A stretch of DNA of 64,000 nt from Utricularia gibba (Eukaryota > Streptophyta > Magnoliopsida > Lamiales > Lentibulariaceae): assembly GCA_002189035.1 (NCBI GenBank), contig NEEC01000016.1:2503001-2567000 (forward strand), given 5' to 3'. The position numbers and the translations under genes were made by a program. Positions 12,242 through 64,000 of the stretch are shown in pieces. Positions within the stretch are counted from its first letter, which is position 1. Every line of letters starts with the position of its first letter. The notes below the pieces were generated by a model. That model had not been told where the DNA came from. It was given only the letters and a program-made list of their open reading frames with translations, and did not search any database.

Positions 12242-12242
12242 G

Positions 12243-26345: not shown

Positions 26346-26375
26346 GGATTTATTAATTAATTCTTAATTAAGTTA

Positions 26376-38067: not shown

Positions 38068-38389
38068 TGTTGATGCAAGAAAAAGAGAGTCTTGGGAAGT
38101 AACAAAAAGGTAATGCTTCTGAGATCACCTTGGATGAAAAACGACTCATGAACAATAAGAATGACCAAAACCCTCATTCACGCATTCCTAGTAGGGTTTA
38201 TATATACCCAATACCTAGGTTAACCAACAGTGGGCCACAATTATTGAAAACACACAAAAAGCCCAACAACTCGAATCCAACACTTCCATGCTCGAACTCA
38301 ACACCTTTTTAATCTGAAATATAACATTATGACACAAGATTAGTGCTTCCAATCACCTTCAGACTTTGGATTGAGGCTGATCTCCAACA
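38068..38389 (-). repeat. Copia A 3' LTR (variant beta)
   Basis: Has inverted TG...CA ends (tgttgg...caaca on the minus strand). It carries variant-beta marks: aggaatgcg, gagggtttt and ctcagaagc. It shares them with the fragment at 43989-44365 and with copia B's 3' LTR. The TATA-like tatatataaa is present. Confidence 0.95.
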
Positions 38390-40925
38390 CTCCCCCCAGA
38401 CCGAGATCTCCCAACTTGAGAAAGTCTTCTATAGTCATGAGATTCATGTTCTTCCTTGCTAGCTCAAACTGAACTCTGTTCAAACCTTTGGTGAGCCCAT
38501 CAGCAAGCTGATTCCCACTCTCAACATACTGCACTTTAATCTTCTTCTCCTTGATGTAATTCCTTATGACATGATACCTGATTCTTATGTGCTTGGCTTT
38601 GCTGAAGTTCGTTGGATCTTTGGCAATGGAGATTGCAGCTCGATTATCCATAAGCAGATGTGTAGCTTCCTTTTGTATGAATCCAAGTTCGTTTAGCATC
38701 TGCCTCAACCAAACACAATAGTTCGAAGCATGTGCTGCTGAGATGTATTCTGCTTCAGCTGTTGATTGTGCTACCACTTTTTGTTTCTTCGAAAACCAGA
38801 CTACAGGACTCTTATTTAAGAAGAAGAGTGCACCAGATGTGCTCTTGCTATCTTCAGCCATACCATAATCACTATCTGAGTAGGCTCCAAGTTTCAAGAC
38901 TGGTTTTTCACCTTCATAGGGATAGAACAATCCGAAATCAGTAGTAGATTTTATGTACCTGAAAGATCTTTTCACAGCTGCCATGTGAGTTGTTGTTGGT
39001 TTGTTGAGGAAGCGAGATAAGACATTTACACAAAAACACAAGTCAGGCCTTGTATGCTGGAGATAAATGAGGCTTCCAATCATACTTCTATAAGTAGTGG
39101 CATCCACATTCTTTCCCTGATTGTTCTCTCCAATCACTTGTTTGTAATCCAAAGGCGTTTTTGAAGGATTGACATCTTTGAACCCAAACCTTTCAAGAAG
39201 TTCATTACAGTACTTTTTCTGAGATATGAATGTTCCAACACCTTCAAGTTGATGAATTTCCATGCCTAGATAATAGGACATCATTCCAAGGTCAGTCATC
39301 TTGAATTCATTTTTGAGTAGAGCTTTGAATTCCTCAATCTTCCTTTCATTACCTGAGGTAATCATAAGATCATCCACATATAAGCTAATAAATAAACGAT
39401 CATCTTCTTTTCCTTTAACATATAATGAGTAATCACTATATGTTTTTCTGAAACCAATACCCTGGAGAAAGTTATCCATGCGTTCATTCCATGCTCTAGG
39501 AGCTTGCTTCAACCTATAGAGAGATTTCTTTAGCTTCAATACCTTGTCTTCATGACCTGACACTTCGAAACCCTTTGGTTGTTCAACAAAAACAACCTCC
39601 TCCAACACACCATTCAAGAACGCAGTCTTGACATCCATGTGATGCACTTTCCATCCATGAGCAGCTGAAATGGCAAGAAGTACTTTAATCGTGTCAAATC
39701 TTGCTACTGGTGCAAAAATCTCATGAAAATTTATTCCTTTGATCTGACTATATCCCTTGGCTACTAATCTAGCCTTATATTTGTTGATAGAGCCATCTGC
39801 ATTCATCTTGGTTTTGAATAACCACTTGAGGCCAATAGGTTTGAAACCCCTATCCTTGGGTTTCTCAACTAATTCCCATGTTTCATTTTCAAGTATAGAA
39901 TTCATTTCTTCCTTCATGGCCTCTCTCCATTTAGGATTTTGTACAGCCACTTCAAATGATGTTGGATCTCCTGTCAATAATACAGCCAAAATATCAGCCA
40001 CAGCATCTTGGACATCATCATTCAACTTGGAGAAACTTATTGTAGGAGCCTTGTTTCTTTTGCTTCTTCTAATGTCAGTAACATGACTATCTTCATTATC
40101 TATTGAATCTCTGATGTTTTTGCGTTTCCTCCTTTGCCCATCACGATCAGATGGGTAATAATCTTCATCATCAGTATCAGGTTCCTCTCCATTAGATTCA
40201 TCTGTTGATGAGTCTTCTACATTCGTGCCTTGCTCCTCTTCTGGGATTTCGAAATTCCCATCTGAAGGTTGATCATTGGCCTGATGAGATCGTCCATACA
40301 GGGGTTCAGAGTTTGATTCTGAATTCTTATTGGGCGAGCCATCTTGATTTGTGACCTTCTCCTCCTCTTGAGCTGGAAAATTCTCATCTGAATGCTGATC
40401 ATTTACTTGATTTGAATCTTCATGAACGAGTTCTGAAGTTTCTTGGTTTGTTGAATTGCTGGAAGAGAAGTTTTGAGGCATGTGTGTCCAGAGGTCTCCT
40501 TTCACATGGGTGCTATGCCTTTCAAGACTTTTATGAGCTTCTGAATCATTCAGAGCAATGCAATTATCAATTAAAGTATACCTTGCACCTTCATCAAAAG
40601 TGACATCATGGCTGAGGATAAATTTCTTCTGTTGAGGTAGATAAACTTTATATCCCTTGGTAGTGTTGCTATAACCAACAAATACACCAGATACATATTT
40701 CTTTTCAAGTTTTCCTCGTTTTTGGTCTGGTATATGAGTAAAACACAGACTACCAAAGATATTGAGATGATCAACCTTTTTAATATAACCATGCCATTTT
40801 TCATGGGCGGTTTTTCCACTAATCGCCCTTGAAGGAAGCAAGTTCAACAGATATACATATGTAGATACCGCTTCAGCCCAGAAACTTACAGGAAGACCTT
40901 TCTCAAACAATAGGCATCTTGACAT
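38340..40925 (-). pseudogene. Copia A reverse transcriptase-RNase H
   Basis: An 861-residue open frame that begins inside the integrase C-terminal part. Residues 1-110 complete the integrase, and 140-300 form an acidic serine-rich linker. Reverse transcriptase starts near 320, with Asp431 in MDVKTAFLNG and catalytic YVDD at 516-519. RNase H has SDSDYG near 683-687, the AEAEY Glu residues near 724 and MDNRAA Asp760. The frame ends inside the 3' LTR. All catalytic residues I can check are present, but the frame is cut off from gag by the integrase break, so I call it a pseudogene. Confidence 0.92.
38390..38397 (-). promoter_or_regulatory. Copia A polypurine tract
   Basis: ggggggag on the minus strand immediately before the 3' LTR; plus-strand DNA priming site. 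Confidence 0.9.
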
Positions 40926-42994
40926 ATCAAGGATTGTTCTGTTTCTCCTTTCACATATACCATTCTGTTGTGGACGGTGAATTGATGCATGATTCCCTCA
41001 TTTTCGCAGAACATTCTCATGCTATTATTGTAGAATTCGCCTCCATTGTCTGATCTAATCATCTTCAAAGAGCATCCACTCTGATTCTCGACCATCACTT
41101 TGAATTTTCGAAAGATATGAGGAAATTCTGACTTGCTTTTAAGAAAGTAAACCCAACAATAACGTGAATAATCATCAATGAATGTAACAAAGTATCTACT
41201 CCCCCCTAATGAACATTCCTTAAATGGTCCACAAACATCTGTATGCACAAGCTCTAATTTCTCCTTTGCTACTGAATCACTGGAATAAAAGGGCTTTCTA
41301 CACTGTTTACCTTGATGACACACTTCACATATGGCATTAGCAAACTTGATGTCTTTCAATTCCAGTACTTCCTTATTCTTCTGCAATATTTTCAGATTGT
41401 TGAAGCTATAGTGCCCAAAACGTTTGTGCCAAAGGCTGCTTTGATCTTGAAGTGAGAAAATACAACTTTTATGATCACTGACCATGATTTGGTAGAGGTT
41501 GTAGGTGGTCAACACAGCATGGAATTCAATCTTCGTTTTTGGATCAGCAACCTTAACTGTAGTGGTTATACCACCAGCATCTTTCATCAGCTCAATGTCA
41601 AAACCTTGCCTGCTCAATTGGCCAAAGCTCAACAGGTTCTGTTTGAGGTTTGGTGAATAATAAACATCATCAACTTGAACAATTCCTTCTTTTAGCAAGA
41701 GTAAAATGCTTCCTTTGCCCACAATGCCAATATTTTCACCAATGCACGTGCTTACCTCCTTCCCAATCCTTTCAAGCTTGAGAAATGACCTTGTATCACA
41801 ACATACATGATAGGAGGCGCCAGAGTCCAAGTACCAGCCTTTAGCATCTGAGGCTACTGTCATTAGAGCACACTCATACTCAAAAGGATCTTCAAAAGAT
41901 ATTTCTGGCTCATCTTCAAAGTAGGTAAAGGATGCATGTGATTTCTCTTCCCTGGAAGTAGCCTTCTTGTTATGCTCAACTTTTATTGGATTTGACATTC
42001 CACATACCTTGTCAAGATGGCCTCTTTGATTGCATTTCGTGCACAAAGCATCAGGCTTCCACCAACAAAACTCACTCCTGTGATTCTGTTTGTTACAATG
42101 CTTGCAAGCATTTGTGCTTAAAGTCCAACAATCTTCACTCTTATGGTTGGATTTGTCACAATGCCTGCACTTCTGATTGCCCATCGTTGATGTGGGGATT
42201 GACGTTGGTGATTGTTTGATGGCTGTTGATTTGACATCCTTGACATTGTTAATTGCACCTGAGTTTATATTCATATTCTGCATTTTGGTGAGGAGAGCAG
42301 CTTCACCATAAGTTTTCTCAACTTCATAACCATCTCTTAGCTCCAATCTCTTTTGTGTAGATTGCAACTCAATCATGAACTCTCTAAATGTTGGCTCTGG
42401 TGTAACAGGATATTCAGGATATAACTGATGGAGCTTTCCTTCAATAATGTCAAGGATTCTTCTTTCTGTCTCAAGTGCACATAACTTTGGCTCGAATCTT
42501 GCAGGTAGGCTCATGATTGCCTTGCTAATCACCTTTTGATCCTCAAGTTGTTTCCCCAATCCTCGAATCTCCTTCACAAGCTTCGCAGTACGTTCATAAT
42601 AGACTTGTATGGTTTCATTGTCTAACATTTTGTTCCTATCAAAGTCCTCCAACTTGTTTTTGCATAATATTTCTCTAAGTTTGGCATCACCTTCATAATG
42701 GGATTTGAGAGTATCCCATATTTCTTTTGCTGATTGACACTCTGCAATATCATCAAATAGATGTTCAGAGATGGCTTGATACAAGGCATCCATTGCTTCA
42801 TCTTTTCTCTGTTGAAGATATTCAGCTTCCTCTTGCTGTTCTGATGTGGATTTGCTTGTTATTGTAATCGTCGGAATCTCCCTTTCAACAACATCCCAAA
42901 TCTTTCTGACCCGCAGGTAGCTGCGCATCTTTTTGACCCTGCTTCCATACCCTGAACCATCAAATATTGGAGGTCCTCTACCAGATGCCATCAT
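40886..42994 (-). pseudogene. Copia A gag-protease-integrase
   Basis: A 702-residue frame starting at the ATG for MMASGRGPPIFDG. The open frame extends further upstream, but only through LTR and primer-site sequence. Gag spans residues 1-340 and has three consecutive CX2CX4HX4C zinc knuckles at 276-289, 297-310 and 318-331. The protease Asp-Ser-Gly is at 390-392. Integrase zinc-binding residues are His523, His528, Cys556 and Cys559. The core has Asp586 (HTDVCGP) and Asp649 (IRSDNGGEF). After about residue 674 the frame leaves the integrase, and the third acidic residue is missing. Copies B and C have the same break. Confidence 0.92.
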
Positions 42995-43100
42995 AGCCAC
43001 CGCTTGAAAAGCTTTGAGTTGATACTTTGTAATCCACCAAGTAAAAAACGCTGAACGGTAAATAAAATACTGAAACGAGCACAGGTTTGAGAACCTTACT

Positions 43101-43112
43101 GCTCTGATACCA
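43101..43112 (-). promoter_or_regulatory. Copia A primer binding site
   Basis: tggtatcagagc on the minus strand, directly after the 5' LTR. Exact plant initiator tRNA-Met complement. Confidence 0.95.
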
Positions 43113-43434
43113 TGTTGATGCAAGAAAAAGAGAGTCTTGGGAAGTAACAAAAAGGTAATGCTTTTGAGATCACCTTAAATGAAAAACGACTCATGAACAA
43201 TAAGAATGACCAAAACCATCATTCACGCATTTCTAGTAGGGTTTATATATACCCAATACCTAGGTTACCCAACAGTGGGCCACAATTATTGAAAACATAC
43301 AAAAAGCCCAACAACTCGAATCGAACACTTCCATGCTCGAACTCAACACCTTTTTAATCTGAAATATAACATTATGACACAAGATTAGTGCTTCCAATCA
43401 CCTTCAAACTTTGGATTGAGGCTGATCTCCAACA
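43113..43434 (-). repeat. Copia A 5' LTR (variant alpha)
   Basis: Variant-alpha marks are agaaatgcg, gatggttttgg and ctcaaaagc. By eye it differs from copia C's 5' LTR (61183-61504) at one position in 322. TATA-like tatatataaa is present. Confidence 0.95.
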
Positions 43435-43607
43435 ATTGAGAAGTGAATATTATTAGCCAACCATGAAGCAAGATATTACTGAAACAATAATATCTTTTCC
43501 TTTCTTTTCCTCCTATTTTAATCTTAATTTTAAAACCTCACATAAGTGGTTTTCTGTTATATTATATTTATGATTTTTAATAACTTTTTTAGATCCTTTT
43601 ATGCGTG
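43435..43607. other. Unassigned 173-bp spacer in left arm
   Basis: AT-rich DNA between copia A and LTRx, mirrored at 61010-61182. No gene. Confidence 0.6.
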
Positions 43608-43988
43608 ATGGGGCATTAATCCGACTGAGTTAATCGGTCTATGAAAAGTAGCCAAAGGGTGTTTTGATGCCCTAGTGCAGGCCGACAGACCGATAACTAT
43701 CAGGACTTGTCAATGGTGGCCGTTTCAGACAAACCGAAAAGTAGCCAAATTATGGCAATAGCATAGCAGTCGGCAGTTATCCAGGGGTAGAACCGTAGTA
43801 CGTACAGCAGACGTAGAAAGCAGCCAACACTTGCAGAACCCCGAATTCAGTCGGGTTCACCCCATCTATAAATGCGAGAAACATTACAGTGGAAGGGGTT
43901 CAACTCGAAGCCCCCCCTCCCCCAACTTGTATCTTTTCCCACCATCTCCGTCTAGTGAAGATTTCCTCGACGAGCTCCGACAACTCCG
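43608..43988 (+). repeat. LTRx, 5' part, cut by copia
   Basis: Starts tgatggggcattaatccg and ends cgacaactccg at a copia LTR. Its last five bases, ctccg, match the first five bases on the other side of copia A (minus strand, 38067-38063). This looks like the target duplication of one original insertion. Confidence 0.8.
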
Positions 43989-44365
43989 TGTTGGAGATCA
44001 GCCTCAATCCAAAGTTTGAAGGTGATTGGAAGCACTAATCTTGTGTCATAATGTTATATTTCAGATAAAAAGTGTTGAGTTCGAGCATGGAAGTGTTGGA
44101 TTCGAGTTGTTGGGCTTTTTGTGTGTTTTCAATAATTGTGGCCCACTGTTGGGTAACCTAGGTATTGGGTATATATAAACCCTACTAGGAATGCGTGAAT
44201 GAGGGTTTTCGGTCATTTTTATTGTTCATGAGTCGTTTTTCATCCAAGGTGATCTCAGAAGCATTACCTTTTTGTTACTTCCCAAGACTCTCTTTTTCTT
44301 GCATCAACATGGTATCAGAGCAGTAAGGTTCTCAAACCTGTGCTCGTTTCAGTATTTTATTTACC
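43989..44365 (+). mobile_element. Truncated copia 5' end (LTR plus primer site)
   Basis: A complete 321-bp LTR of variant beta (43989-44309), primer site tggtatcagagc at 44310-44321, and 44 bp more. At 44366 it switches abruptly to a gypsy fragment. It has the opposite orientation to copia A. Mirrored exactly at 60252-60628. Confidence 0.92.
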
Positions 44366-44569
44366 TTTTTGGAAATTAGGTGCCCTAAAAATTCCATTAT
44401 CCACCAAAAAATGATATTTTTCAGAATTTAAAACCAAATTCTTTTCCACACATTTCTTCAAAACCTGATCCAAATGGTCTAAGCTTGACTCAAAATTTTC
44501 TCCATTTACCATAAAATCATTCATAAATATTTCAATAAAGTAAATAATCCCTCTCTCATTCCACAAAGT
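44366..44569 (-). pseudogene. Gypsy reverse transcriptase fragment
   Basis: Minus-strand frame with IYFIEIFMNDFMVNGENF, then LDHLDQVLKKCVEKNLVLNS and EKYHFLVDNGIF. This is the palm/thumb region of gypsy reverse transcriptase. The catalytic motif reads FMND where the family has FMDD. A fragment only. Confidence 0.8.
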
Positions 44570-44758
44570 GATGAGCCCCAGGAAGATAATGAAGTGTATT
44601 TGAAGAATGATGAAGAGTTTGTCCAAGTGAACACATTAGAAACAAAGATGATTCAACCAGGACCAATGACTAGGAGCAAGACAAAGATGGTGGAAGATAC
44701 ACTTAAGTGTCTACTCAATACCATTGGAATCAAACATGGGCTTGAAGAAATCCCATGA
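44570..44758 (+). pseudogene. Gypsy pol C-terminal tail
   Basis: Plus-strand frame of 62 codons ending in TGA at 44756-44758. It contains IQPGPMTRSKTKMVEDTLK, the GPMTRS-type motif at the C-terminus of many plant gypsy polyproteins. It is followed by LTR-like sequence, and its orientation opposes the adjacent RT fragment. Mirrored at 59859-60047. Confidence 0.7.
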
Positions 44759-44769
44759 AAAGAGCTCAA

Positions 44770-45136
44770 CTACTTGAACGTGGATTTACCTTAGAGCATT
44801 GGGCTTGTTAGACTTTTCTATTTCATTTAGTTTGGGCTATATAATGTTAGAGCCCAATCCTAGAGTATAAATACTCTAGAGATTTACTATTTCAGGATCT
44901 GTAGTCATTTGATGTATGTTGTGAGGATTCTCCTCTTCTTTGAGTGGTTGAACACTCTGGACTTATCAAGCTTCGAGCTTGTGGTGTCTTAGGATTATCA
45001 CTTCCAATTCCAACTATTTTTGAAGTGTGGCTCCTAAATTTCCTTTCTTTTCAAAGTCTGGTTGCAAGAGATTGATTCTCTTGAGGGTAGACTTGAGTGG
45101 GTTTCTTTCTAGGCTTCCAGATCACTTCTTGTTGAA
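44770..45136 (+). repeat. Gypsy LTR with palindromic TATA region
   Basis: Follows a pol tail, as a 3' LTR would. It holds ctagagtataaatactctag (44860-44879), a 9-bp perfect inverted repeat around a TATA-like core, and gggctatataatgttagagc just before it. Mirrored at 59481-59847. Confidence 0.55.
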
Positions 45137-45440
45137 TGATGGGGGATAAATCAATCGAGCGTAATCGGCTTCCAAAATGCTGCCAAAAGACACTCTGAGG
45201 GGATAATGCCAGTCTACAGACCGATATTTATCAGAGATCTGACAGATATGACCATATGGCACAGTCTGAAAAGCGAGATCGTATAGCAGGTGCAGAAAGC
45301 AACCGATATTTGCAGATGTTAGGATTCGGCCATATTGAGCTCTTCTTTAAATCGAAGCATTCATTACGGAGAATGGGTTTGACCCTAAGAACTCTTCAAC
45401 TTATATCATTTTCTTCAACAAGTAAACCCTAGGTGCTTTC
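45137..45440 (+). repeat. LTRx-like fragment
   Basis: Starts tgatgggggataaatcaatc and shares cagaccgata and gcagaaagca-type words with 43608-43988. It ends near the 3' end of the minus-strand gypsy element. Mirrored at 59177-59480. Confidence 0.6.
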
Positions 45441-45531
45441 TCATGAGGGTGGGGGGGTGGTGAGAGAGGTCCACTAGAACATGCAATGTGTCCATGGAAG
45501 ATTTTACTCCTTTATGAAACCGTTTCAATCT

Positions 45532-46800
45532 CTAAATATTTACCATAAATTCTCCATGATCACGGTGAGTGATGAGGACTGCTCCACTAGGGTAGATTTT
45601 CTTGATGGTGTATGGTCCACGCCATCTAGACTTGAGCTCTCCTGGAAAGAGGCAAAAAGGAGAGTTAAATAACAAAATTGGGTCACCTTCTGCCAGGTCC
45701 TTCTTGCGCAAGTGATTGTCATGCCAAGCCTTCATTTGTTCCTTGTACAGTTTTGTATTTTCGTAGGCACTCATCCTTAGCTCGTCCAGCTCTTGGAGTT
45801 GCAAGATCCTCTGCTCTCCAGCTGCGTTGGCATCCAAATTTAATTCTTTGATAGCTCAATATGCCTTGTGCTCTAATTCCACAACCAAGTGACAAGCTTT
45901 TCCATACACCAAACGATAAGGGGAGGTCCCCAAGGGAGTCTTATACGCTGTGGTATAAGCCCATAAAGCACCAGTTATTTTAGTTGCCCAATCCTTGCGA
46001 GTTTTGGCCACCGTACGCTCCAGAATCCTCTTCAATTCCCTGTTAGTTACCTCCACTTGTCTGCAGGTTTGTGGGTGATATGGAGTTGATGCCTTGTGTC
46101 TCACTCCATACTTGCGCAAGAGCTTCCGGAATTCTCTTTCAATGAACTGTTTCCCTCCATCACTTATAGCGTATCTTGGGGCTCCAAACCTGGGTAGAAT
46201 GATCTGTTTGAAGAGCTTAATTATGGCTCTTCGATCAGCTGCTGGAGCCGCAATAGCTTCTACCCATTTTGAGACATAATCCACTGCTACAAGAATTTGA
46301 GTGTTTCCATAAGAAGATGGAAAGGGTCCCATAAAATCCAGCCCCCAAACATCGAAAATTTCCACCTCCAGGATATAAGTCATGGGTCCTTCATCTCTCC
46401 TGGAAATAGAACCCGCATGCTGACATGGTTCGCATGCTTGAACAAATGCCCTCACATCTTGACTCATGGTGGACCAATAAAATCCAGATTGAAGAATTTT
46501 GAAGAGTGTTTTTGATGCTGCTGAATGCCCTCCATAGGGTGATGAATGGCAGTGCCAAATAACGTCCCTTACCTCCTCTGGTGGTAGGCATCTTCTGATA
46601 ATTCCATCACCACAACGTTTGAAAAGCATAGATTCTTCCCAGAAATAATGCTTTGCTTGCGCAAGGAAGCGCTTCCGCTGGTTGAAGTTCAGATTTTGGG
46701 GCAAGACTCCTCCAACAAGATAATTGACAAAATCAGCATACCATGGCAGATTGCCATCTTGGACAGCAAGGATACGTTCTGTGGGGGAAAGAATCATCAA
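45532..46800 (-). pseudogene. Gypsy integrase, left arm
   Basis: Two frames separated by a TGA near 45838. The first (46800-45856, 314 residues) has the zinc-binding region [10 protein letters not shown] and CEPCQH. Its core has Asp in WGLDFMGPF, Asp in ISDGGKQF and Glu in [12 protein letters not shown]. The second (45837-45532) is the C-terminal part with the WRGPYTIKKIYPSGAV motif. The catalytic acids are present, but the frame is isolated from upstream pol. The right-arm copy (57850-59085) is almost identical. Confidence 0.9.
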
Positions 46801-46940
46801 TGGGCAACTCCCCCCACACTTGTTTCAAGGTGTAGGTGTGACAAATGATCAGCCACTCCATTTTCCTTGCCCTTCTTGTCACGAATTTCCATATCAAATT
46901 CTTGCAGAAGTAGTATCCATCTTATCAACCTGGGTTTCGA

Positions 46941-47849
46941 TTACTGCTTTCTCAAAAGATATCTCAAGGCAGCGTGATCCGTATGAACAATTACCTTTGC
47001 ACCCAACAAATAGGATCTGAATTTTTCAATGGCAAAAACAATGGCCAACAACTCATTTTCTGTGGTTGTGTAGTTCCTTTGGGCTGCATTGGGAGTTGTT
47101 CTGGCATAATAAATCACATAATTTACCTTGTCTTTTTTCTGTCCAAGAACAGCCCCTACAACACAATCACTTGCATCACACATCAATTCAAATGGCAAGG
47201 TCCAATCTGGTGGTTGAAGAATGGGTGCAGTAATAAGAGCTTGCTTCAGCGTGTTGAAGGCGTGCACACATTGTTCATGAAAACAAAAATCCGCGTCTTG
47301 CGCAAGCAGCGTTGTTAGTGGGCGAGAAATGTGAGAAAAATTAGCAATAAATCTCCTATAAAATTCTGCATGCTCCAAGAAGCTTCTAATCCCCTTCACC
47401 GTAGTTGGTTCTGGTAATTTTTCAATCACCTCGATTTTTGCTGGATCCACTTGAATGCCTTTGGAAGAAATGTGATGTCCAAGCACAATGACTTCTTCAA
47501 CCATAAAATGACACTTCTCCCAATTGAGTACCAGGTTGCATTCAATACGCCTCTCCAAAATGATGCCTAAGTTCTACAAACATGAATCGAAATCAGTCCC
47601 ATAAACAGATATATCATCCATAAATACCTCCATGATCTTCTCCATATGTTCCGAAAAAATGGCTGTCATGCAATGCTGAAAAGTTCCAGGAGCATTGCAC
47701 AAACCGAATGGCATTCTCTTGTATGCAAAGGTGCCAAAAGGGCAAGTAAATGTGGTCTTGTGTTGATCTTCCGGATGAATTGGAATCTGAAAATATCCGG
47801 AATAACCATCAAGGTAACAATAGAAAGCTTGGTTACTTAACCTTTCCAT
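46941..47849 (-). pseudogene. Gypsy reverse transcriptase-RNase H, left arm
   Basis: 47849-47574 carries reverse transcriptase with YCYLDGYSGYFQIPI and the catalytic EVFMDDISVYG. A TAG at 47574-47576 interrupts. 47558-46941 resumes with LVLNWEKCHFMVEE, then the RNase H region with MCDASDCVVGAVLGQ, TENELLAIVFAIEKFR and HTDHAALRYLL. It ends at a stop after LLRKQ. Identical breaks occur in the right arm. Confidence 0.9.
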
Positions 47850-48024
47850 AATTTGATCAATAAATGGTAATGGTTAATGATCCTTTCTGGTGGCATCATT
47901 GAGTTTCTGAAAATCTATACACATCCTCCAGCTAGTGACCTTGTGCAAGGGGATGAGGTCTTCCTTCTCGTTTTGTCACTGTCATGCCTCCTTTCTTTGG
48001 TACGCAGTGCGCTGGGCTAACCCA

Positions 48025-49075
48025 TTAGCTATTTGAAATAGAGTAGATGATATCAGCATCCAACAATTTCAAAATTTCGTTTTTAATCACTTCTTTTAGC
48101 ATAGGATTCGCCCGCCTTTGTTGTTGCACAATTGGTCTCGCCTCAGGTTCCAAATAAATCCGATGGGTGTAGAATTGAGGGTCAAGCCCTTTCAAGTCAT
48201 CCAAGGTGTACCCAATGGCTTGTTTGTGCTTGCGCAAGACATCCAGCATTTGGGTGTAGTATTCATTCAATCCTGCATTAACAATCATGGGGTAAGTGAT
48301 CATCCTCAAGAAATTCGTACCTCAATGATGGTGGCAGCTTCTTCAACTCAATTTTTTCTCTAGCATCAAGTTCCTTGTTTGTTAGCTGAGCCATGATTGG
48401 TGTGTCATCTGGAATGTCTTCTTTTTCATCCTGCAGAAGATTTATTTCCTGAATTCCGCGCAGAAAAACTGCTTGCGCCTGCTCCTGCATAACAGCATCT
48501 TCCGCTTCCCTTTGCGCAAGCTCGTCGCAGTCAAATCGCTTCATTGCTTGATCAACATTGAACTTCAGTTCCTCTTCTCCGAATCTGAGTGTCAATTTCC
48601 CTGCTCTAACATCAATTAAGGCTCCTGTGGTTGCCATAAAGGGTCTCTCAAAAATGATTGGCACTACCACATCAAGTGCCATATCCAAAACAACAAAATC
48701 ACAAGTAACAAAATATTTTCCAATTTTTACCGGTACGTTTTCTACCACTCCTTTGGGATTCTTCATGGATTTATCAGCAAATACCAGTTGAATTTTCGTG
48801 GTTCTTAGCTCCTCAAGATTCAGTGCTTTGAATAAAAAATAAGGCATCAAGCTGATACTTGACCCAAGATCATATAAGCACTTCTCAAAATTGCTTCTTC
48901 CAATGATACAAGGGATTGAAAAAATTCCATGATTTGCATGCTTTTGAATCAACCCCTGTGTAAGAACCGTGCTGCACTGCTTGGATAATTCAATAACAGC
49001 ATCATTCTCAATCTTGCTTCGATTGGCCAGAATATCCTTCAAGAATTTCGCATAAGTGGGCATTTGCAACATCAC
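48025..49075 (-). pseudogene. Gypsy protease and RT N-terminus, left arm
   Basis: 49075-48278 starts in the gag-protease linker (QMPTYAKFLKDILANRSK). It includes a retropepsin-like site LYDLGSSISLMPYF (Asp69). A frame change near 48300 leads to 48309-48025: MIVNAGLNEYYTQML, then RRANPMLKEVIKNEILKLL, the entry to reverse transcriptase. It stops at 48025-48027. The next 175 bp to the RT frame at 47849 are frameshifted relics. Confidence 0.9.
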
Positions 49076-49084
49076 ATCAGTGGA

Positions 49085-49883
49085 TGCACAGCCTGTTCCT
49101 CCATTTCCTCTGCATGCCGAGTGTTGTTCTCACCTCCAGCCTCCTCCTGATTCTTTTCCTCCAGAATTTCATTTTCAGCCTTCGGAACCTCCTCTGCCGC
49201 CTCTTCTTCATTTCTGGAAATTCTAGAATTTTCCTCCATGGTGGGCAGCACTTGTTCTTCCGGCACAACATGTTCCTTCGCATGCACAGGTTCCTTCAGC
49301 AAAGCCTTCTGCTTTTTTGTCCCATGTTTCTTTCCCTTCTTCTTAGACGTGATCTGCGGCAATGTTGGTGGTTCTTTCGCTGGAGATTTTCTCTTCTTAT
49401 AAGTCTACTGCATGTCCTTCAATCGTTGCTGAAGGCTAGTATGTTCTAATTTGGAGGCTGGGTCCTTCCGTTTATTCCTCTTAGAGGATTCCCCCACCTC
49501 TCCCGTCTGAGGAATCACGTCCACTTCCCAGAGGTTCTCTTTAATGGCAGCAGCAGGCTGAACCGCTTCTTCCTGGGTTGGAGCAATAGTGGTGGCGGCA
49601 CAGCATCCCCAGTGCCATCCTTCACTTGCTCCTTCTGCATCTTTTTCTGGCCAGGCTTCTCTTTTGCAGTATTCTTTGCGCTTCGTGTTGCGGCATTGTG
49701 TTTCTAATTCTGTAATTTTTCGTAGAAAAATCGCAGACAAATGAGTGAAGTGAAGAATAGTAACTGTTCTTCAAAGTAATTTTAAGCATGAAGGGCATTT
49801 CTATCATTCCCCTTTGGTACAACTTCCCACTCATCTCAACGGTCTGATTTTTTTGTAAGTCCTCATCAATAACTCCTCTTAAC
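49085..49883 (-). pseudogene. Acidic/lysine-rich frame at the inverted-repeat centre
   Basis: Minus-strand frame from about 49740 to 49072, interrupted by TAG at 49405-49407. It contains KKKGKKHGTKKQKALLKEP and a long Glu-rich tail. Upstream (49880-49690) another frame reads MSGKLYQRGMIEMPFMLKI. It is joined to the gypsy gag-protease linker only by a short shared word, so this may be a foreign piece. Absent from the right arm. Not recognised. Confidence 0.45.
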
Positions 49884-50203
49884 TGTTGGAGCTCAGCCTC
49901 AATCCAAAGTTTGAAGGTGATTGGAAGCACTAATCTTGTGTCATAATGTTATATTTCAGATAAAAAGTGTTGAGTTCGAGCATGGAAGTGTTGGATTCGA
50001 GTTGTTGGGCTTTTTGTGTGTTTTCAATAATTGTGGCCCACTGTTGGGTAACCTAGGTATTGGGTATATATAAACCCTACTAGAAATGCGTGAATGATGG
50101 TTTTGGTCATTCTTATTGTTCGTGAGTCGTTTTCCATCCAAGGTGATCTCAAAAGCATTACCTTTTTGTTACTTCCCAATACTCTCTTTTTCTTGCATCA
50201 ACA
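49884..50203 (+). repeat. Copia B 5' LTR
   Basis: TG...CA ends. Reads tgttggagctcagcctc at the start where other copies have gatc. TATA-like tatatataaa is at 50065-50074. Alpha-type marks agaaatgcg and ctcaaaagc are present. Confidence 0.95.
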
Positions 50204-50215
50204 TGGTATCAGAGC
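50204..50215 (+). promoter_or_regulatory. Copia B primer binding site
   Basis: tggtatcagagc directly after the LTR; initiator tRNA-Met type. Confidence 0.95.
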
Positions 50216-50321
50216 AGTAAGGTTCTCTAACCTGTGCTCGTTTCAGTATTTTATTTACCGTTCAGCGTTTTTTCCTTGGTGGATTACAAAGTATCAACCC
50301 AAAGCTTTTCAAGCGGTGGCT

Positions 50322-54972: not shown

Positions 54973-55207
54973 TCTTGTGTCATAATGTTATATTTCAGAT
55001 TAAAAAGGTGTTGAGTTCGAGCATGGAAGTGTTGGATTCGAGTTGTTGGGCTTTTTGTGTGTTTTCAATAATTGTGGCCCACTAAGAATGCGTGTCAATA
55101 GGGTTTTCGGTCATTTTTATTGTTCATGAGTCGTTTTTCATCCAAGGTGATCTCAGAAGCATTACCTTTTTGTTACTTCCCAAGACTCTCTTTTTCTTGC
55201 ATCAACA
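54923..55207 (+). repeat. Copia B 3' LTR, promoter part deleted
   Basis: 37 bp shorter than the 322-bp LTRs. The missing part after gtggcccact includes the tatatataaa TATA-like box. Variant-beta marks (ttttcggtcatt, ctcagaagc) are present. Confidence 0.93.
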
Positions 55208-55532
55208 AGAAGGAGTGAATAAAGAAGTGATGGAGCAACTAAAAAAGGTGAGTGAGCGTGTGGAGCTACTCAGTATGACTACACACATCCTGGACAGTTG
55301 GATGAATAATGTTGCTCATACCCACAAGGTTTCGAGGCTCCCAAGTCAACTAGAGAAAAATCTTGCTGAATGCAAAGCTGTGGCAACAAGGAGTGGGATG
55401 CATGGTACAACAACAACAGAGTATCTCCACCTTCTCATAATCCTCCAGTTCCTTATCCATAGAGACAGGCCAAATCATCAGTGGATCAACAATATTCCAA
55501 GTTTCTGCAGATGCTGAAAACGCTTCATGCCC
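55208..55532 (+). pseudogene. Gypsy gag C-terminal fragment
   Basis: Frame pieces include LPSQLEKNLAECKAVATRSG and KSSVDQQYSKFLQMLKTLHA, the gag C-terminal and gag-protease linker blocks of plant gypsy elements. Several stops. It continues naturally into the protease of the right arm, so this side is the original join. The left arm has a different sequence here. Confidence 0.75.
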
Positions 55533-55542
55533 ATTCACTGAT

Positions 55543-56593
55543 GTGATGTTGCAAATGCCCACTTATGCGAAATTCTTGAAGGATATTCTGGCCAATCGAA
55601 GCAAGATTGAGAATGATGCTGTTATTGAATTATCCAAGCAGTGCAGCACGGTTCTTACACAGGGGTTGATTCAAAAGCATGCAAATCATGGAATTTTTTC
55701 AATCCCTTGTATCATTGGAAGAAGCAATTTTGAGAAGTGCTTATATGATCTTGGGTCAAGTATCAGCTTGATGCCTTATTTTTTATTCAAAGCACTGAAT
55801 CTTGAGGAGCTAAGAACCACGAAAATTCAACTGGTATTTGCTGATAAATCCATGAAGAATCCCAAAGGAGTGGTAGAAAACGTACCGGTAAAAATTGGAA
55901 AATATTTTGTTACTTGTGATTTTGTTGTTTTGGATATGGCACTTGATGTGGTAGTGCCAATCATTTTTGAGAGACCCTTTATGGCAACCACAGGAGCCTT
56001 AATTGATGTTAGAGCAGGGAAATTGACACTCAGATTCGGAGAAGAGGAACTGAAGTTCAATGTTGATCAAGCAATGAAGCGATTTGACTGCGACGAGCTT
56101 GCGCAAAGGGAAGCGGAAGATGCTGTTACGCAGGAGCAGGCGCAAGCAGTTTTTCTGCGCGGAATTCAGGAAATAAATCTTCTGCAGGATGAAAAAGAAG
56201 ACATTCCAGATGACACACCAATCATGGCTCAGCTAACAAACAAGGAACTTGATGCTAGAGAAAAAATTGAGTTGAAGAAGCTGCCACCATCATTGAGGTA
56301 CGAATTTCTTGAGGATGATCACTTACCCCATGATTGTTAATGCAGGATTGAATGAATACTACACCCAAATGCTGGATGTCTTGCGCAAGCACAAACAAGC
56401 CATTGGGTACACCTTGGATGACTTGAAAGGGCTTGACCCTCAATTCTACACCCATCGGATTTATTTGGAACCTGAGGCGAGACCAATTGTGCAACAACAA
56501 AGGCGGGCGAATCCTATGCTAAAAGAGGTGATTAAAAACGAAATTTTGAAATTGTTGGATGCTGATATCATCTACTCTATTTCAAATAGCTAA
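55543..56593 (+). pseudogene. Gypsy protease and RT N-terminus, right arm
   Basis: Mirror of 48025-49075. The 265-residue frame (55543-56340) has the LYDLGSSISLMPY site and one visible difference (DAVTQEQ here, DAVMQEQ left). The RT entry frame 56309-56593 ends at a TAA. The same breaks as in the left arm. Confidence 0.9.
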
Positions 56594-56768
56594 TGGGTTA
56601 GCCCAGCGCACTGCGTACCAAAGAAAGGAGGCATGACAGTGACAAAACGAGAAGGAAGACCTCATCCCCTTGCACAAGGTCACTGGCTGGAGGATGTGTA
56701 TAGATTTTCAGAAACTCAATGATGCCACCAGAAAGGATCATTAACCATTACCATTTATTGATCAAATT

Positions 56769-57677
56769 ATGGAAAGGTTAAGTAACCAAGCTTTCTATTG
56801 TTACCTTGATGGTTATTCCGGATATTTTCAGATTCCAATTCATCCGGAAGATCAACACAAGACCACATTTACTTGCCCTTTTGGCACCTTTGCATACAAG
56901 AGAATGCCATTCGGTTTGTGCAATGCTCCTGGAACTTTTCAGCATTGCATGACAGCCATTTTTTCGGAACATATGGAGAAGATCATGGAGGTATTTATGG
57001 ATGATATATCTGCTTATGGGACTGATTTCGATTCATGTTTGTAGAACTTAGGCATCATTTTGGAGAGGCGTATTGAATGCAACCTGGTACTCAATTGGGA
57101 GAAGTGTCATTTTATGGTTGAAGAAGTCATTGTGCTTGGACATCACATTTCTTCCAAAGGCATTCAAGTGGATCCAGCAAAAATCGAGGTGATTGAAAAA
57201 TTAACAGAACCAACTACGGTGAAGGGGATTAGAAGCTTCTTGGAGCATGCAGAATTTTATAGGAGATTTATTGCTAATTTTTCTCACATTTCTCGCCCAC
57301 TAACAACGCTGCTTGCGCAAGACGCGGATTTTTGTTTTGATGAACAATGTGTGCACGCCTTCAACACGCTGAAGCAAGCTCTTATTACTGCACCCATTCT
57401 TCAACCACCAGATTGGACCTTGCCATTTAAATTGATGTGTGATGCAAGTGATTGTGTTGTAGGGGCTGTTCTTGGACAGAAAAAAGACAAGGTAAATTAT
57501 GTGATTTATTATGCCAGAACAACTCCCAATGCAGCCCAAAGGAACTACACAACCACAGAAAATGAGTTGTTGGCCATTGTTTTTGCCATTGAAAAATTCA
57601 GATCCTATTTGTTGGGTGCAAAGGTAATTGTTCATACGGATCACGCTGCCTTGAGATATCTTTTGAGAAAGCAGTAA
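56769..57677 (+). pseudogene. Gypsy reverse transcriptase-RNase H, right arm
   Basis: Mirror of 46941-47849. TAG at 57042-57044 after the FMDD region and a stop after LLRKQ at 57675-57677, as in the left arm. RNase H landmarks CDASDCVVGAVLG and HTDHAALRYL are present. Confidence 0.9.
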
Positions 57678-57849
57678 TCGAAACCCAGGTTGATAAGATG
57701 GATACTACTTCTCCAAGAATTTGATATGGAAATTCGTGACAAGAAGGGCAAGGAAAATGGAGTGGCTGATCATTTGTCACACCTACACCTTGAAACAAGT
57801 GTGGGGGAGTTGCCCATTGATGATTCTTTCCCCCACAGAACGTATCCTT

Positions 57850-59085
57850 GCTGTCCAAGATGGCAATCTGCCATGGTATGCTGATTTTGTCAATTATCTT
57901 GTTAGAGGAGTCTTGCCCCAAAATCTGAACTTCAACCAGCGGAAGCGCTTCCTTGCGCAAGCAAAGCATTATTTCTGGGAAGAATCTATGCTTTTCAAAC
58001 GTTGTGGTGATGGAATTATCAGAAGATGCCTACCACCAGAGGAGGTAAGGGACGTTATTTGGCACTGCCATTCATCACCCTATGGAGGGCATTCAGCAGC
58101 ATCAAAAACACTCTTCAAAATTCTTCAATCTGGATTTTATTGGTCCACCATGAGTCAAGATGTGAGGGCATTTGTTCAAGCATGCGAACCATGTCAGCAT
58201 GCGGGTTCTATTTCCAGGAGAGATGAAGGACCCATGACTTATATCCTGGAGGTGGAAATTTTCGATGTTTGGGGGCTGGATTTTATGGGACCCTTTCCAT
58301 CTTCTTATGGAAACACTCAAATTCTTGTAGCAGTGGATTATGTCTCAAAATGGGTAGAAGCTATTGCGGCTCCAGCAGCTGATCGAAGAGCCATAATTAA
58401 GCTCTTCAAACAGATCATTCTACCCAGGTTTGGAGCCCCAAGATACGCTATAAGTGATGGAGGGAAACAGTTCATTGAAAGAGAATTCCGGAAGCTCTTG
58501 CGCAAGTATGGAGTGAGACACAAGGCATCAACTCCATATCACCCACAAACCTGCAGACAAGTGGAGGTAACTAACAGGGAATTGAAGAGGATTCTGGAGC
58601 GTACGGTGGCCAAAACTCGCAAGGATTGGGCAACTAAAATAACTGGTGCTTTATGGGCTTATACCACAGCGTATAAGACTCCCTTGGGGACCTCCCCTTA
58701 TCGTTTGGTGTATGGAAAAGCTTGTCACTTGGTTGTGGAATTAGAGCACAAGGCATATTGAGCTATCAAAGAATTAAATTTGGATGCCAACGCAGCTGGA
58801 GAGCAGAGGATCTTGCAACTCCAAGAGCTGGACGAGCTAAGGATGAGTGCCTACGAAAATACAAAACTGTACAAGGAACAAATGAAGGCTTGGCATGACA
58901 ATCACTTGCGCAAGAAGGACCTGGCAGAAGGTGACCCAATTTTGTTATTTAACTCTCCTTTTTGCCTCTTTCCAGGAGAGCTCAAGTCTGGATGGCGTGG
59001 ACCATACATCATCAAGAAAATCTACCCTAGTGGAGCAGTCCTCATCACTCACCGTGATCATGGAGAATTTATGATAAATATTTAG
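57850..59085 (+). pseudogene. Gypsy integrase, right arm
   Basis: Mirror of 45532-46800. The open frame formally starts at 57721, but its first part is out of frame with pol: 57690-57850 in another frame reads [19 protein letters not shown] and [11 protein letters not shown], the RNase H to integrase linker. Zinc-binding and core residues are as in the left arm. A stop near 58761 separates the C-terminal piece 58780-59085. Confidence 0.9.
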
Positions 59086-59176
59086 AGATTGAAACGGTTT
59101 CATAAAGGAGTAAAATCTTCCATGGACACATTGCATGTTCTAGTGGACCTCTCTCACCACCCCCCCACCCTCATGA

Positions 59177-59480
59177 GAAAGCACCTAGGGTTTACTTGTT
59201 GAAGAAAATGATATAAGTTGAAGAGTTCTTAGGGTCAAACCCATTCTCCGTAATGAATGCTTCGATTTAAAGAAGAGCTCAATATGGCCGAATCCTAACA
59301 TCTGCAAATATCGGTTGCTTTCTGCACCTGCTATACGATCTCGCTTTTCAGACTGTGCCATATGGTCATATCTGTCAGATCTCTGATAAATATCGGTCTG
59401 TAGACTGGCATTATCCCCTCAGAGTGTCTTTTGGCAGCATTTTGGAAGCCGATTACGCTCGATTGATTTATCCCCCATCA
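59177..59480 (-). repeat. LTRx-like fragment, right arm
   Basis: Mirror of 45137-45440, starting tgatggggg on the minus strand at 59480. Confidence 0.6.
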
Positions 59481-59847
59481 TTCAACAAGAAGTGATCTGG
59501 AAGCCTAGAAAGGAACCCACTCAAGTCTACCCTCAAGAGAATCAATCTCTTGCAACCAGACTTTGAAAAGAAAGGAAATTTAGGAGCCACACTTCAAAAA
59601 TAGTTGGAATTGGAAGTGATAATCCTAAGACACCACAAGCTCGAAGCTTGATAAGTCCAGAGTGTTCAACCACTCAAAGAAGAGGAGAATCCTCACAACA
59701 TACATCAAATGACTACAGATCCTGAAATAGTAAATCTCTAGAGTATTTATACTCTAGGATTGGGCTCTAACATTATATAGCCCAAACTAAATGAAATAGA
59801 AAAGTCTAACAAGCCCAATGCTCTAAGGTAAATCCACGTTCAAGTAG
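59481..59847 (-). repeat. Gypsy LTR with palindromic TATA, right arm
   Basis: Mirror of 44770-45136. The TATA palindrome ctagagtatttatactctag is at 59738-59757. Confidence 0.55.
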
Positions 59848-59858
59848 TTGAGCTCTTT

Positions 59859-60047
59859 TCATGGGATTTCTTCAAGCCCATGTTTGATTCCAATGGTATT
59901 GAGTAGACACTTAAGTGTATCTTCCACCATCTTTGTCTTGCTCCTAGTCATTGGTCCTGGTTGAATCATCTTTGTTTCTAATGTGTTCACTTGGACAAAC
60001 TCTTCATCATTCTTCAAATACACTTCATTATCTTCCTGGGGCTCATC
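59859..60047 (-). pseudogene. Gypsy pol C-terminal tail, right arm
   Basis: Mirror of 44570-44758, with the same GPMTRSKTK motif and stop. Confidence 0.7.
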
Positions 60048-60251
60048 ACTTTGTGGAATGAGAGAGGGATTATTTACTTTATTGAAATATTTATGAATGA
60101 TTTTATGGTAAATGGAGAAAATTTTGAGTCAAGCTTAGACCATTTGGATCAGGTTTTGAAGAAATGTGTGGAAAAGAATTTGGTTTTAAATTCTGAAAAA
60201 TATCATTTTTTGGTGGATAATGGAATTTTTAGGGCACCTAATTTCCAAAAA
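60048..60251 (+). pseudogene. Gypsy reverse transcriptase fragment, right arm
   Basis: Mirror of 44366-44569 with the same FMND motif and the same junction to the copia fragment. Confidence 0.8.
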
Positions 60252-60628
60252 GGTAAATAAAATACTGAAACGAGCACAGGTTTGAGAACCTTACTGCTCT
60301 GATACCATGTTGATGCAAGAAAAAGAGAGTTTTGGGAAGTAACAAAAAGGTAATGCTTCTGAGATCACCTTGGATGAAAAACGACTCATGAACAATAAAA
60401 ATGACCGAAAACCCTCATTCACGCATTCCTAGTAGGGTTTATATATACCCAATACCTAGGTTACCCAACAGTGGGCCACAATTATTGAAAACACACAAAA
60501 AGCCCAACAACTCGAATCCAACACATCCATGCTCGAACTCAACACTTTTTATCTGAAATATAACATTATGACACAAGATTAGTGCTTCCAATCACCTTCA
60601 AACTTTGGATTGAGGCTGATCTCCAACA
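60252..60628 (-). mobile_element. Truncated copia 5' end, right arm
   Basis: Mirror of 43989-44365: LTR 60308-60628 and primer site 60296-60307 on the minus strand, with the identical breakpoint. Confidence 0.92.
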
Positions 60629-61009
60629 CGGAGTTGTCGGAGCTCGTCGAGGAAATCTTCACTGGACGGAGATGGTGGGAAAAGATACAAGTTGGGGGAG
60701 GGGGGGCTTAGAGTTGAACCCCTTCCACTGTAATGTTTCTCGCATTTATAGATGGGGTGAACCCGACTGAATTCGGGGTTCTGCAAGTGTTGGCTGCTTT
60801 CTACGTCTGCTGTACGTACTACGGTTCTACCCCTGGATAACTGCCGACTGCTATGCTATTGCCGTAATTTGGCTACTTTTCGGTTTGTCTGAAACGGCCA
60901 CCATTGACAAGTCCTGATAGTTATCGGTCTGTCGGCCTGCACTAGGGCATCAAAACACCCTTTGGCTACTTTTCATAGACCGATTAACTCAGTCGGATTA
61001 ATGCCCCAT
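60629..61009 (-). repeat. LTRx, 5' part, right arm
   Basis: Mirror of 43608-43988, ending tgatgggg on the minus strand at 61009. The unassigned spacer 61010-61182 follows. Confidence 0.8.
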
Positions 61010-61182
61010 CACGCATAAAAGGATCTAAAAAAGTTATTAAAAATCATAAATATAATATAACAGAAAACCACTTATGTGAGGTTTTAAAATTAAGATTAAA
61101 ATAGGAGGAAAAGAAAGGAAAAGATATTATTGTTTCAGTAATATCTTGCTTCATGGTTGGCTAATAATATTCACTTCTCAAT

Positions 61183-61504
61183 TGTTGGAGATCAGCCTCA
61201 ATCCAAAGTTTGAAGGTGATTGGAAGCACTAATCTTGTGTCATAATGTTATATTTCAGATTAAAAAGGTGTTGAGTTCGAGCATGGAAGTGTTGGATTCG
61301 AGTTGTTGGGCTTTTTGTATGTTTTCAATAATTGTGGCCCACTGTTGGGTAACCTAGGTATTGGGTATATATAAACCCTACTAGAAATGCGTGAATGATG
61401 GTTTTGGTCATTCTTATTGTTCATGAGTCGTTTTTCATTTAAGGTGATCTCAAAAGCATTACCTTTTTGTTACTTCCCAAGACTCTCTTTTTCTTGCATC
61501 AACA
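61183..61504 (+). repeat. Copia C 5' LTR (variant alpha)
   Basis: 322 bp, TG...CA ends, about one difference from copia A's 5' LTR by eye. Followed by the primer site. Confidence 0.95.
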
Positions 61505-61516
61505 TGGTATCAGAGC
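61505..61516 (+). promoter_or_regulatory. Copia C primer binding site
   Basis: tggtatcagagc, initiator tRNA-Met type. Confidence 0.95.
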
Positions 61517-61622
61517 AGTAAGGTTCTCAAACCTGTGCTCGTTTCAGTATTTTATTTACCGTTCAGCGTTTTTTCCTTGGTGGATTACAAAGTATCAACC
61601 CAAAGCTTTTGAAGCGGTGGCT

Positions 61623-63554
61623 ATGATGGCATCTGGTAGAGTACCTCCAATATTTGATGGTTCAGGGTATGGAAGCTGGGTCAAAAAGATGCGCAGCTAC
61701 CTGCGGGTCAGAAAGATTTGGGATGTTGTCGAAAGGGAGATTCCGGCGATTACAATAACAAGCAAATCCACATCAGAACAGCAAGAGGCAGCTGAATATC
61801 TTCAACAGAGAAAAGATGAAGCAATGGATGCCTTGTATCAAGCCATCTCTGAACATCTATTTGATGATATTACAGAGTGTCAATCAGCAAAAGAAATATG
61901 GGATACTCTCAAATCCCATTATGAAGGTGATGCCAAACTGAGAGAAATATTATGCAAAAACAAGCTAGAGGACTTTGAGAGGAACAAAATGTTAGACAAT
62001 GAAACCATACAAGTCTATTATGAACGTACTGCGAAACTTGTGAAGGAGATTCGAGGATTGGGGAAACAACTTGAGGATCAAAAGGTGATTAGCAAGGCAA
62101 TCATGAGCATACCTGCAAGATTCGAGCCAAAGTTATATGCACTTGAGACAGAAATAAGAATCCTTGACATTATTGAAGGAAAGCTCCATCAGTTATATCC
62201 TGAATATCCTGTTACACCAGAGCCAACATTTAGAGAGTTCATGATTGAGTTGCAATCTACACAAAAGAGATTGGAGCTAACAGATGGTTATGAAGTTGAG
62301 AAAACTTATGGTGAAGCTGCTCTCCTCACCAAAATGCAGAATATGAATATAAACTCAGGTGCAATTAACAATGTCAAGGATGTCAAATCAACAGCCATCA
62401 AACAATCACCAACGTCAATCCCCACATCAATGATGGGCAATCAGAAGTGCAGGCATTGTGACAAATCCAACCATAAGAGTGAAGATTGTTGGACTTTAAG
62501 CACAAATGCTTGCAAGCATTGTAACAAACAGAATCACAGAAGTGAGTTTTGTTGGTGGAAGCCTGATGCTTTGTGCACGAAATGCAATCAAAGAGGCCAT
62601 CTTGACAAGGTATGTGGAATGTCAAATCCAATAAAAGTTGAGCATAACAAGAAGGCTACTTCCAGGGAAGAGAAATCACATGCATCCTTTACCTACTTTG
62701 AAGATGAGCCAGAAATATCTTTTGAAGATCCTTTTGAGTATGAGTGTGCTCTAATGACAGTAGCCTCAGATGCTAAAGGCTGGTACTTGGACTCTGGCGC
62801 CTCCTATCATGTATGTTGTGATACAAGGTCATTTCTCAAGCTTGAAAGGATTGGGAAGGAGGTAAGCACGTGCACTGGTGAAAATATTGGCATTGTGGGC
62901 AAAGGAAGCATTTTACTCTTGCTAAAAGAAGGAATTGTTCAAGTTGATGATGTCTATTATTCACCAAACCTCAAACAGAACCTGTTGAGGTTTGGCCAAT
63001 TGAGCAGGCAAGGTTTTGACATTGAGCTGATGAAAGATGCTGGTGGTATAACCACTACAGTTAAGGTTGCTGATCCAAAAACGAAGATTGAATTCCATAC
63101 TGTGTTGACCACCTACAACCTCTACCAAATCATGGTCAGTGATCATAAAAGTTGTATTTTCTCACTTCAAGATCAAAGCAGCCTTTGGCACAAACGTTTT
63201 GGGCACTATAGCTTCAACAATCTGAAAATATTGCAGAAGAATAAGGAAGTACTGGAATTGAAAGACATCAAGTTTGCTAATGCCATATGTGAAGTGTGTC
63301 ATCAAGGTAAACAGTGTAGAAAGCCCTTTTATTCCAGTGATTCAGTAGCAAAGGAGAAATTAGAGCTTGTGCATACAGATGTTTGTGGACCATTTAAGGA
63401 ATGTTCATTAGGGGGGAGAAGATACTTTGTTACATTCATTGATGATTATTCACGTTATTGTTGGGTTTACTTTCTTAAAAGCAAGTCAGAATGTTCTGTG
63501 AAAATGAGGGAATCATGCATCAATTCACCGTCCACAACAGAATGGTATATGTGA
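61623..63554 (+). pseudogene. Copia C gag-protease-integrase, deleted core
   Basis: Starts at MMASGRVPPIFDG. Three zinc knuckles, the protease Asp-Ser-Gly, the zinc-binding residues and the first integrase Asp are present. Near 63490 it jumps from SKSE to a different frame because 112 bp found in A and B are missing, including the second catalytic Asp region. The frame ends at 63552-63554. Confidence 0.93.
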
Positions 63555-63579
63555 AAGGAGAAACAGAACAATCCTTGAT

Positions 63580-64000
63580 ATGTCAAGATGCCTATTGTTT
63601 GAGAAAGGTCTTCCTGTAAGTTTCTGGGTTGAAGCGGTATCTACATCTGTATATCTGTTGAACTTGCTTCCCTCAAGGGCGATTAGTGGAAAAACCGCCC
63701 ATGAAAAATGGCATGGTGATATTAAAAAGGTTGATCATCTCAAAATCTTTGGTAGTCTGTGTTTTACTCATATACCAGGCCAAAAACGAGGAAAACTTGA
63801 AAAGAAATCTGTATCTGGTGTATTTGTTGGTTATAGCAACACTACCGAGGGATATAAAGTTTATCTACCTCAACAGAAGAAATTTATCCTCAGCCATGAT
63901 GTCACTTTTGATGAAGGTGCAAGGTATACTTTAATTGATGATTGCGTTGCTCTGAATGATGCAGAAGCTCATAAAAGTCTTGAAAGGCATAGCACCCATG
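63580..64000 (+). pseudogene. Copia C second frame, partial
   Basis: Open from [20 protein letters not shown] to the window end, colinear with copy A residues 1-140. It lacks copy B's TAG and reads TTEGYKVYLP at that spot. Completeness cannot be judged. Confidence 0.85.

Follow-up and report, generated by a model that had tools for sequence, protein, structure and literature searches.

A nested inverted repeat of copia and gypsy fragments in Utricularia gibba and its probable origin by local recombination and duplication

How does a mirror image of retroelement fragments, about 8 kb to the side, come to stand in a plant genome, and does it act there? The question is raised by a stretch of 64,000 nucleotides from Utricularia gibba (assembly GCA_002189035.1, contig NEEC01000016.1, positions 2,503,001 to 2,567,000; C402:2503001-2567000 in our numbering), which was analysed whole and is called the window below. 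An earlier note on this DNA had described a giant nested inverted repeat in the right half of the window, proposed that its arms be aligned for percent identity, and likened it to the Mu killer (Muk) locus of maize as a possible source of hairpin RNA. The window was compared with itself (self-BLAST and a repeat finder), followed by a 134-kb stretch of native sequence surrounding it, such that coordinates above 64000 fall outside the window; domains were assigned by Pfam search of reading frames. Genome searches covered 100 Mb in 516 contigs, with selected pieces as queries and about 40 candidates scored in each search, and the family sizes obtained in this way are lower bounds. The locus very probably arose by local rearrangement in several steps within a region rich in retrotransposons, a copia-mediated inversion being followed by an inverted duplication and then by a tandem duplication.

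The mirror structure is confirmed and is part of a larger arrangement. Both self-BLAST and the repeat finder gave a main inverted pair at 41122-49086 and 55532-63496 with a spacer of 6.4 kb between the arms, and alignment of the arms returned an identity of 99.4%: of 7,964 compared sites, 45 were mismatched (27 by transition, 18 by transversion), and the alignment has 2 gap columns. The arms are thus non-identical, as the earlier note had held, and its mirror axis at about 52308 and near-constant pairing sum were both borne out: the coordinates of paired sites add up to 104,617-104,618 throughout 7.96 kb, and the axis was computed at 52,309. Nesting was also recovered in the form of a second inverted pair, 38068-43441 and 49877-55207, with 97.9% identity and an axis near 46,650. 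The outermost piece that had been counted as part of the arms (40505-41017 and 63488-64000) is real but not in register with them, being displaced by 113 because the right copy is without 112 bp after 63487; this outer homology extends beyond the window as far as 38229 and 66277. Additionally, a direct repeat (52298-59482 and 63488-70675, 99.43%) leaves the window, past whose end lies a third gypsy copy.

Each arm contains half of a Ty1/copia element, a 554-bp block, a stub made of a long terminal repeat (LTR) and a fragment of a Ty3/gypsy element, and the locus as a whole, with three copia elements and three gypsy fragments, has the order C1(-) G1(-) C2(+) G2(+) C3(+) G3(+). Element C1 (38068..43434, minus strand), which was delimited from Pfam domains, LTR ends, flanks and alignment to the right arm, enters the left arm with its half 41122-43434. 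It encodes Retrotran_gag_2, Pol_BBD and gag_pre-integrs, then SH3_retrovirus and RVT_2, between LTRs of 322 bp (3' LTR a, 38068-38389; 5' LTR b, 43113-43434) that begin with TGTTGG, finish with CAACA and are followed by TGGTATCAGAGC, which we take to be the primer-binding site. Element C2 (49884..55207, plus strand) has LTR d at 49884-50203 and LTR e at 54923-55207, and C3 (61183..64000, plus strand, continuing outside the window to 66401) starts with LTR g at 61183-61504. The Ty1/copia arrangement, a copia-type gag and reverse transcriptase between LTRs, was found in C1 by domains and in C2 and C3 by alignment. Between C1 and the gypsy sequence lie the 554-bp block (43435..43988, plus strand), probably inverted relative to its original right-hand neighbour, and LTR c (43989-44309), a second 5' LTR whose 59-bp copia leader is cut off against, and runs into, gypsy sequence (together 43989..44368, plus strand). 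Their mirror images are LTR f (60308-60628) with its 59-bp leader (60249..60628, minus strand) and a copy of the block (60629..61182, minus strand) that is 99.5% identical to 43435-43988.

The gypsy fragment of the left arm, G1 (44369..49086, minus strand), carries RNase H and integrase domains, with RT_RNaseH at 46941-47573 and Integrase_H2C2 and rve at 45856-46824 on the minus strand; RNase H thus lies upstream of integrase on the coding strand, the order by which G1-G3 are assigned to Ty3/gypsy. G2 (55208..60248, plus strand) belongs to the right arm from 55532 and keeps the original gypsy order through that position. The stop codons had been described as mirrored, and this stands for the 3' ends of three gypsy frames, which match across the axis (45856/58761, 46941/57677, 48278/56340), but not for one upstream frame limit (46824 vs 57697). 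The best gypsy relative aligned at length is 93% identical over 1.67 kb, with short gypsy pieces reaching 95%. A chance mirror is excluded, since the arms are 99.4% alike over 8 kb whereas the next-best relative of the 554-bp block reaches 80% and the best long-aligned gypsy relative 93%.

The joints inside the arms reveal how the two sides are related. Only two of 40 candidates scored span the joint between LTR stub and gypsy sequence (44368/44369), and these are the two arms; the 554-bp block likewise has two copies at or above 99%, both at the locus, with the next best at 80% (40 scored). The joint between C2 and gypsy sequence is spanned by two of 45 candidates, the window and its tandem copy, and matches to the remaining gypsy copies stay on the gypsy side of this joint (the longest at no more than 84%, short parts at up to 95%). 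The retroelement pieces with shared breakpoints that had been noted in the arms are present, and because these internal joints are common to both arms and seen in no other candidate scored, the arms are copies of each other, made by local duplication and not by separate insertions.

The point at which the inverted duplication broke can be located to within a few bases (49079..49087). A gypsy copy on contig C460 (L021) aligns through 55532 to 55206 at 90.7% and to the left arm only up to 49086 at 93.1%; since it continues past 55532 yet stops at 49086, the right arm is the one that keeps the gypsy order, and 49086/49087 is the break. This joint is spanned by one of 40 candidates, the window itself. 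Of the others, 21 match on the gypsy side alone (G2 and G3 among them) and all end at query position 187 or before, while 18 match only the other side, 12 of these beginning at query position 180, so that the two sides overlap at 49079-49086, a microhomology of about 8 bp. On the far side stands a 797-bp piece of a different repeat, the left flank of C2 (49087..49883; 31 candidates, next-best 81-82%). A unique, non-homologous breakpoint with a short overlap is the mark of a segmental inverted duplication, and the joint may have been made by microhomology-mediated joining or template switching.

An earlier inversion is suggested by the flanks of the copia elements. A 5-bp target duplication is normal in this family, as shown by GCATC on both sides of a full-length copy on contig C4 and by GCAAG and GACCC on both sides of single LTRs on contigs C4 and C460, respectively. 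None of the three elements of the locus has its own (C1 CGGAG/ATTGA, C2 TTAAC/AGAAG, C3 TCAAT/AGAAG), and full-length elements with unlike 5-mers at their ends, as here, are expected from ectopic recombination among LTR retrotransposons. An exchanged flank is also present, in one pair and with one paralogue: the 3' flank of C1, read on its own strand, is CTCCG, which is the 5' flank of LTR c. In agreement with this swap, LTR a is closer to LTR c (4 differences in 320 sites) than to b, with which it is now paired (9 in 322), and LTR b is nearest to its arm copy g (1 of 322 differing). If LTRs a and c were once the ends of one element, then the 554-bp block formerly lay next to the sequence left of 38068, and both flanks, joined by script, align unbroken to a paralogous locus (L024; query 172-733, joint at 554, 77%). 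The flank swap, the LTR kinship and the uninterrupted paralogous site support, as the simplest account, recombination between two head-to-head copia elements that would have inverted the 554 bp between them. A parallel was found in a joined stretch of contig C460, where GACAC stands beside a 5' LTR at 4636 and, reverse-complemented, beside an oppositely oriented 3' LTR at 909.

Taken together, these features suggest a history in four steps. Two opposite copia elements 554 bp apart would have recombined, inverting the block between them. The copia half, the 554 bp, the LTR stub and the gypsy fragment would then have been duplicated in inverted orientation, one end being joined to an unrelated repeat at the 49086/49087 microhomology and the other within copia sequence; the arms and the breakpoint are observed, and template switching or break-induced replication would be the candidate process. 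A piece of the right half would next have been duplicated in tandem, giving the 3' part of C3 and the third gypsy copy outside the window; this duplication itself is observed, and it may have occurred by unequal exchange between copia copies. Finally, the copia parts would have kept exchanging sequence with their relatives.

The relative order draws on the gypsy copies. The pair G2-G3 has 5 differing sites among 3,949, compared with 13 of 3,951 for G1 and G2 and 10 of 3,950 for G1 and G3, and the private sites number 9 in G1, 4 in G2 and 1 in G3, which weakly favours a later date for the tandem copy than for the inverted copy. The 3' LTR of C3 (66117-66401) shares with the 3' LTR of C2 both its flank, AGAAG, and a 39-bp deletion (in LTR e, 54923-55207) that removes a TATATA motif kept in the six other LTRs of the locus. 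Among 44 variable sites of C3 after 63497, 16 agree with C2, 12 with C1 and 15 are private; because this agreement barely favours C2, the derivation of the C3 3' half from C2 rests on the shared LTR deletion, the flank and the gypsy copy. The 112-bp deletion after 63487 was seen in C3 and in none of the other copies, and its joint is spanned by one of 77 candidates. The copia part of the arms diverges more than the remainder (28 of 2,694 sites vs 17 of 5,271; Fisher p 1e-4), and this higher divergence, along with the mixed sites of C3, would fit exchange with other copia copies. At a substitution rate of 1.3e-8 per site per year, the non-copia divergence of 0.32% would roughly correspond to an age of the order of 0.1 million years, assuming no exchange between the arms.

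Several observations weigh against this history or parts of it. Two of the three full-length copies read outside the window are also without target duplications, so that such loss is common in the clusters of this family. The margin in LTR kinship is small (4 differences vs 9), the uninterrupted site rests on one paralogue at 77%, and the parallel on contig C460 carries further rearrangements. Similarly, the sequence of steps depends on 14 variable gypsy sites, and the 3' half of C3 is only slightly nearer to C2 than to C1 (16 vs 12 of 44).

Recombination among copia copies covers the features tested, with no function required. The process, in which clustered LTR retrotransposons recombine and are duplicated, is a known one, and the locus is a complex example of it. 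Passages of a published account of ectopic (unequal homologous) recombination describe intact elements without target duplications as its products (PMC7251063), comparable to the absence of an own duplication in the three copia elements here and to the one flank that matches another LTR. The outcome differs in that it adds an inversion and an inverted and tandem duplication of several elements, and those passages name no inversion (PMC7251063). The locus offers a base-level case of clustered retrotransposons making inversions, inverted duplications and tandem copies. In a copia cluster on contig C460 (L028-L029, C460:181001-194000), a full-length copy has differing flanks, GACAC and GGGTC, that match those of oppositely oriented neighbouring LTRs, which resembles the flank swap of the window.

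A local rearrangement has to be weighed against an assembly artefact, a concern already voiced in the earlier note, in which two haplotypes or similar copia clusters were misjoined in a wrong orientation inside a copia copy and no palindrome exists in the plant. The repeated segments are linked by C2 and C3, members of a many-copy family with LTRs 93-97% alike in which misjoins can happen, and the 0.57% divergence of the arms lies within the range of two haplotypes. Conversely, the sequences joined at 49086/49087 are non-homologous apart from the microhomology, and this break lies outside copia sequence and in one arm only; the arms differ by 45 substitutions against merely 2 gap columns; a 6.4-kb spacer is unlike a fold-back read; the three gypsy copies carry private changes; and no near-identical copy of the searched pieces occurs on any other contig of the set. 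From these features of the sequence, misassembly of the locus appears unlikely.

It is more doubtful still that the locus is a functional silencing locus of the Muk type, where a palindrome transcript would form a long hairpin and yield small RNAs that target the families of its gypsy and copia parts. Passages on two systems document that loci of this sort can work. In maize, Muk consists of a portion of MuDR that has been duplicated and inverted, and it is transcribed as a perfect 2.4-kb hairpin that silences MuDR (PMC2563033), and in Arabidopsis, IR71 gives about 3 kb of double-stranded RNA processed by DCL2, DCL3 and DCL4 (PMC12825306). The present locus resembles Muk as there described in that a transposon segment has been duplicated and inverted at one place (PMC2563033), and resembles IR71 in being an inverted repeat several kilobases long that occurs naturally in the genome (PMC12825306). 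Unlike the perfect hairpin of Muk, its arms are 99.4% alike, come from two retroelement families, enclose a 6.4-kb spacer and are known from DNA alone; and whereas double-stranded RNA and its processing were measured for IR71 (PMC12825306), the evidence here is sequence.

The geometry makes a Muk-like hairpin RNA possible. A 4.7-kb gypsy stem with the 6.4-kb spacer is present, and LTR f, which is oriented towards the palindrome, retains its TATATA motif. A transcript running right from LTR c would come to LTR d, on the same strand, after about 5.6 kb. One running left from LTR f would pass through G2, C2 and G1 with no same-strand LTR before b (43434); because the other route meets such an LTR early, a hairpin RNA, if any, would be predicted to start in LTR f and run left. 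Geometry alone is weak evidence for a silencing locus, however, and the structure is already accounted for by recombination. A wider proposal, in which a copia family that inserts into itself re-sorts its clusters through inversions and inverted duplications and traps other retroelements in long palindromes, some of which, here via the leftward promoter of LTR f, would turn into single-transcript sources of hairpin RNA that silence the captured gypsy family, seems to us just as doubtful. The recombination part is ordinary genome evolution, while the silencing part would matter if shown true, and on this locus it could be tested concretely whether a young retroelement palindrome of several kilobases turns into a source of hairpin RNA.

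Independent nested insertion of the same families in opposite orientation, with a mirror arising by chance, is hardly credible: although the copia family inserts into itself, a contig C4 copy with GCATC on both sides lying inside another, so that small palindromes are possible, independent insertion of all parts is ruled out for the large arms by internal joints that both arms share and that were found nowhere else among the candidates scored. An origin of the large arms by autointegration or reverse transcription was also dropped, since they hold non-copia DNA. Nesting of plant LTR retrotransposons into their own family is described as autoinsertion in the passages of PMC6911290, and the contig C4 cluster, with the copia family inserted in its own copies, is of this kind; the large arms differ from it in being duplicated DNA and not independent insertions. 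In that cluster (L030-L032, C4:1992001-2022000), the copia copy with GCATC on both sides inside another family copy gives rise to two inverted segments 2.3 kb long and 99.2% identical. Another small palindrome lies outside the window at 83160-87944 (C402:2586160-2590944), where copia 5' halves form an inverted repeat whose arms, 2.19 kb long and separated by 411 bp, align with 0 mismatches and 2 gaps. In its spacer a 3' LTR end adjoins internal copia sequence, and the repeat could be a product of autointegration, a nested insertion that later lost sequence by deletion, or a fold-back introduced in assembly.

Scans of the window for transfer RNAs (bacterial code) and for Rfam families (at gathering thresholds) found nothing. 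In its left half, frames of a hAT-type transposase occupy 4685-6791; the C-terminal frame (5994-6791) has Dimer_Tnp_hAT and hAT-like_RNase-H, and no Pfam match was obtained for the two frames upstream of it. The left half also holds older direct and inverted repeats at 11497-12242 and 25783-27352, 0.2-0.7 kb long and 71-90% identical. Beyond the window, a tandem array with units of about 2.3-2.5 kb, many copy pairs of which are 96-99% alike, extends over 102372-114000 (C402:2605372-2617000), close to the contig end at 2,629,907.

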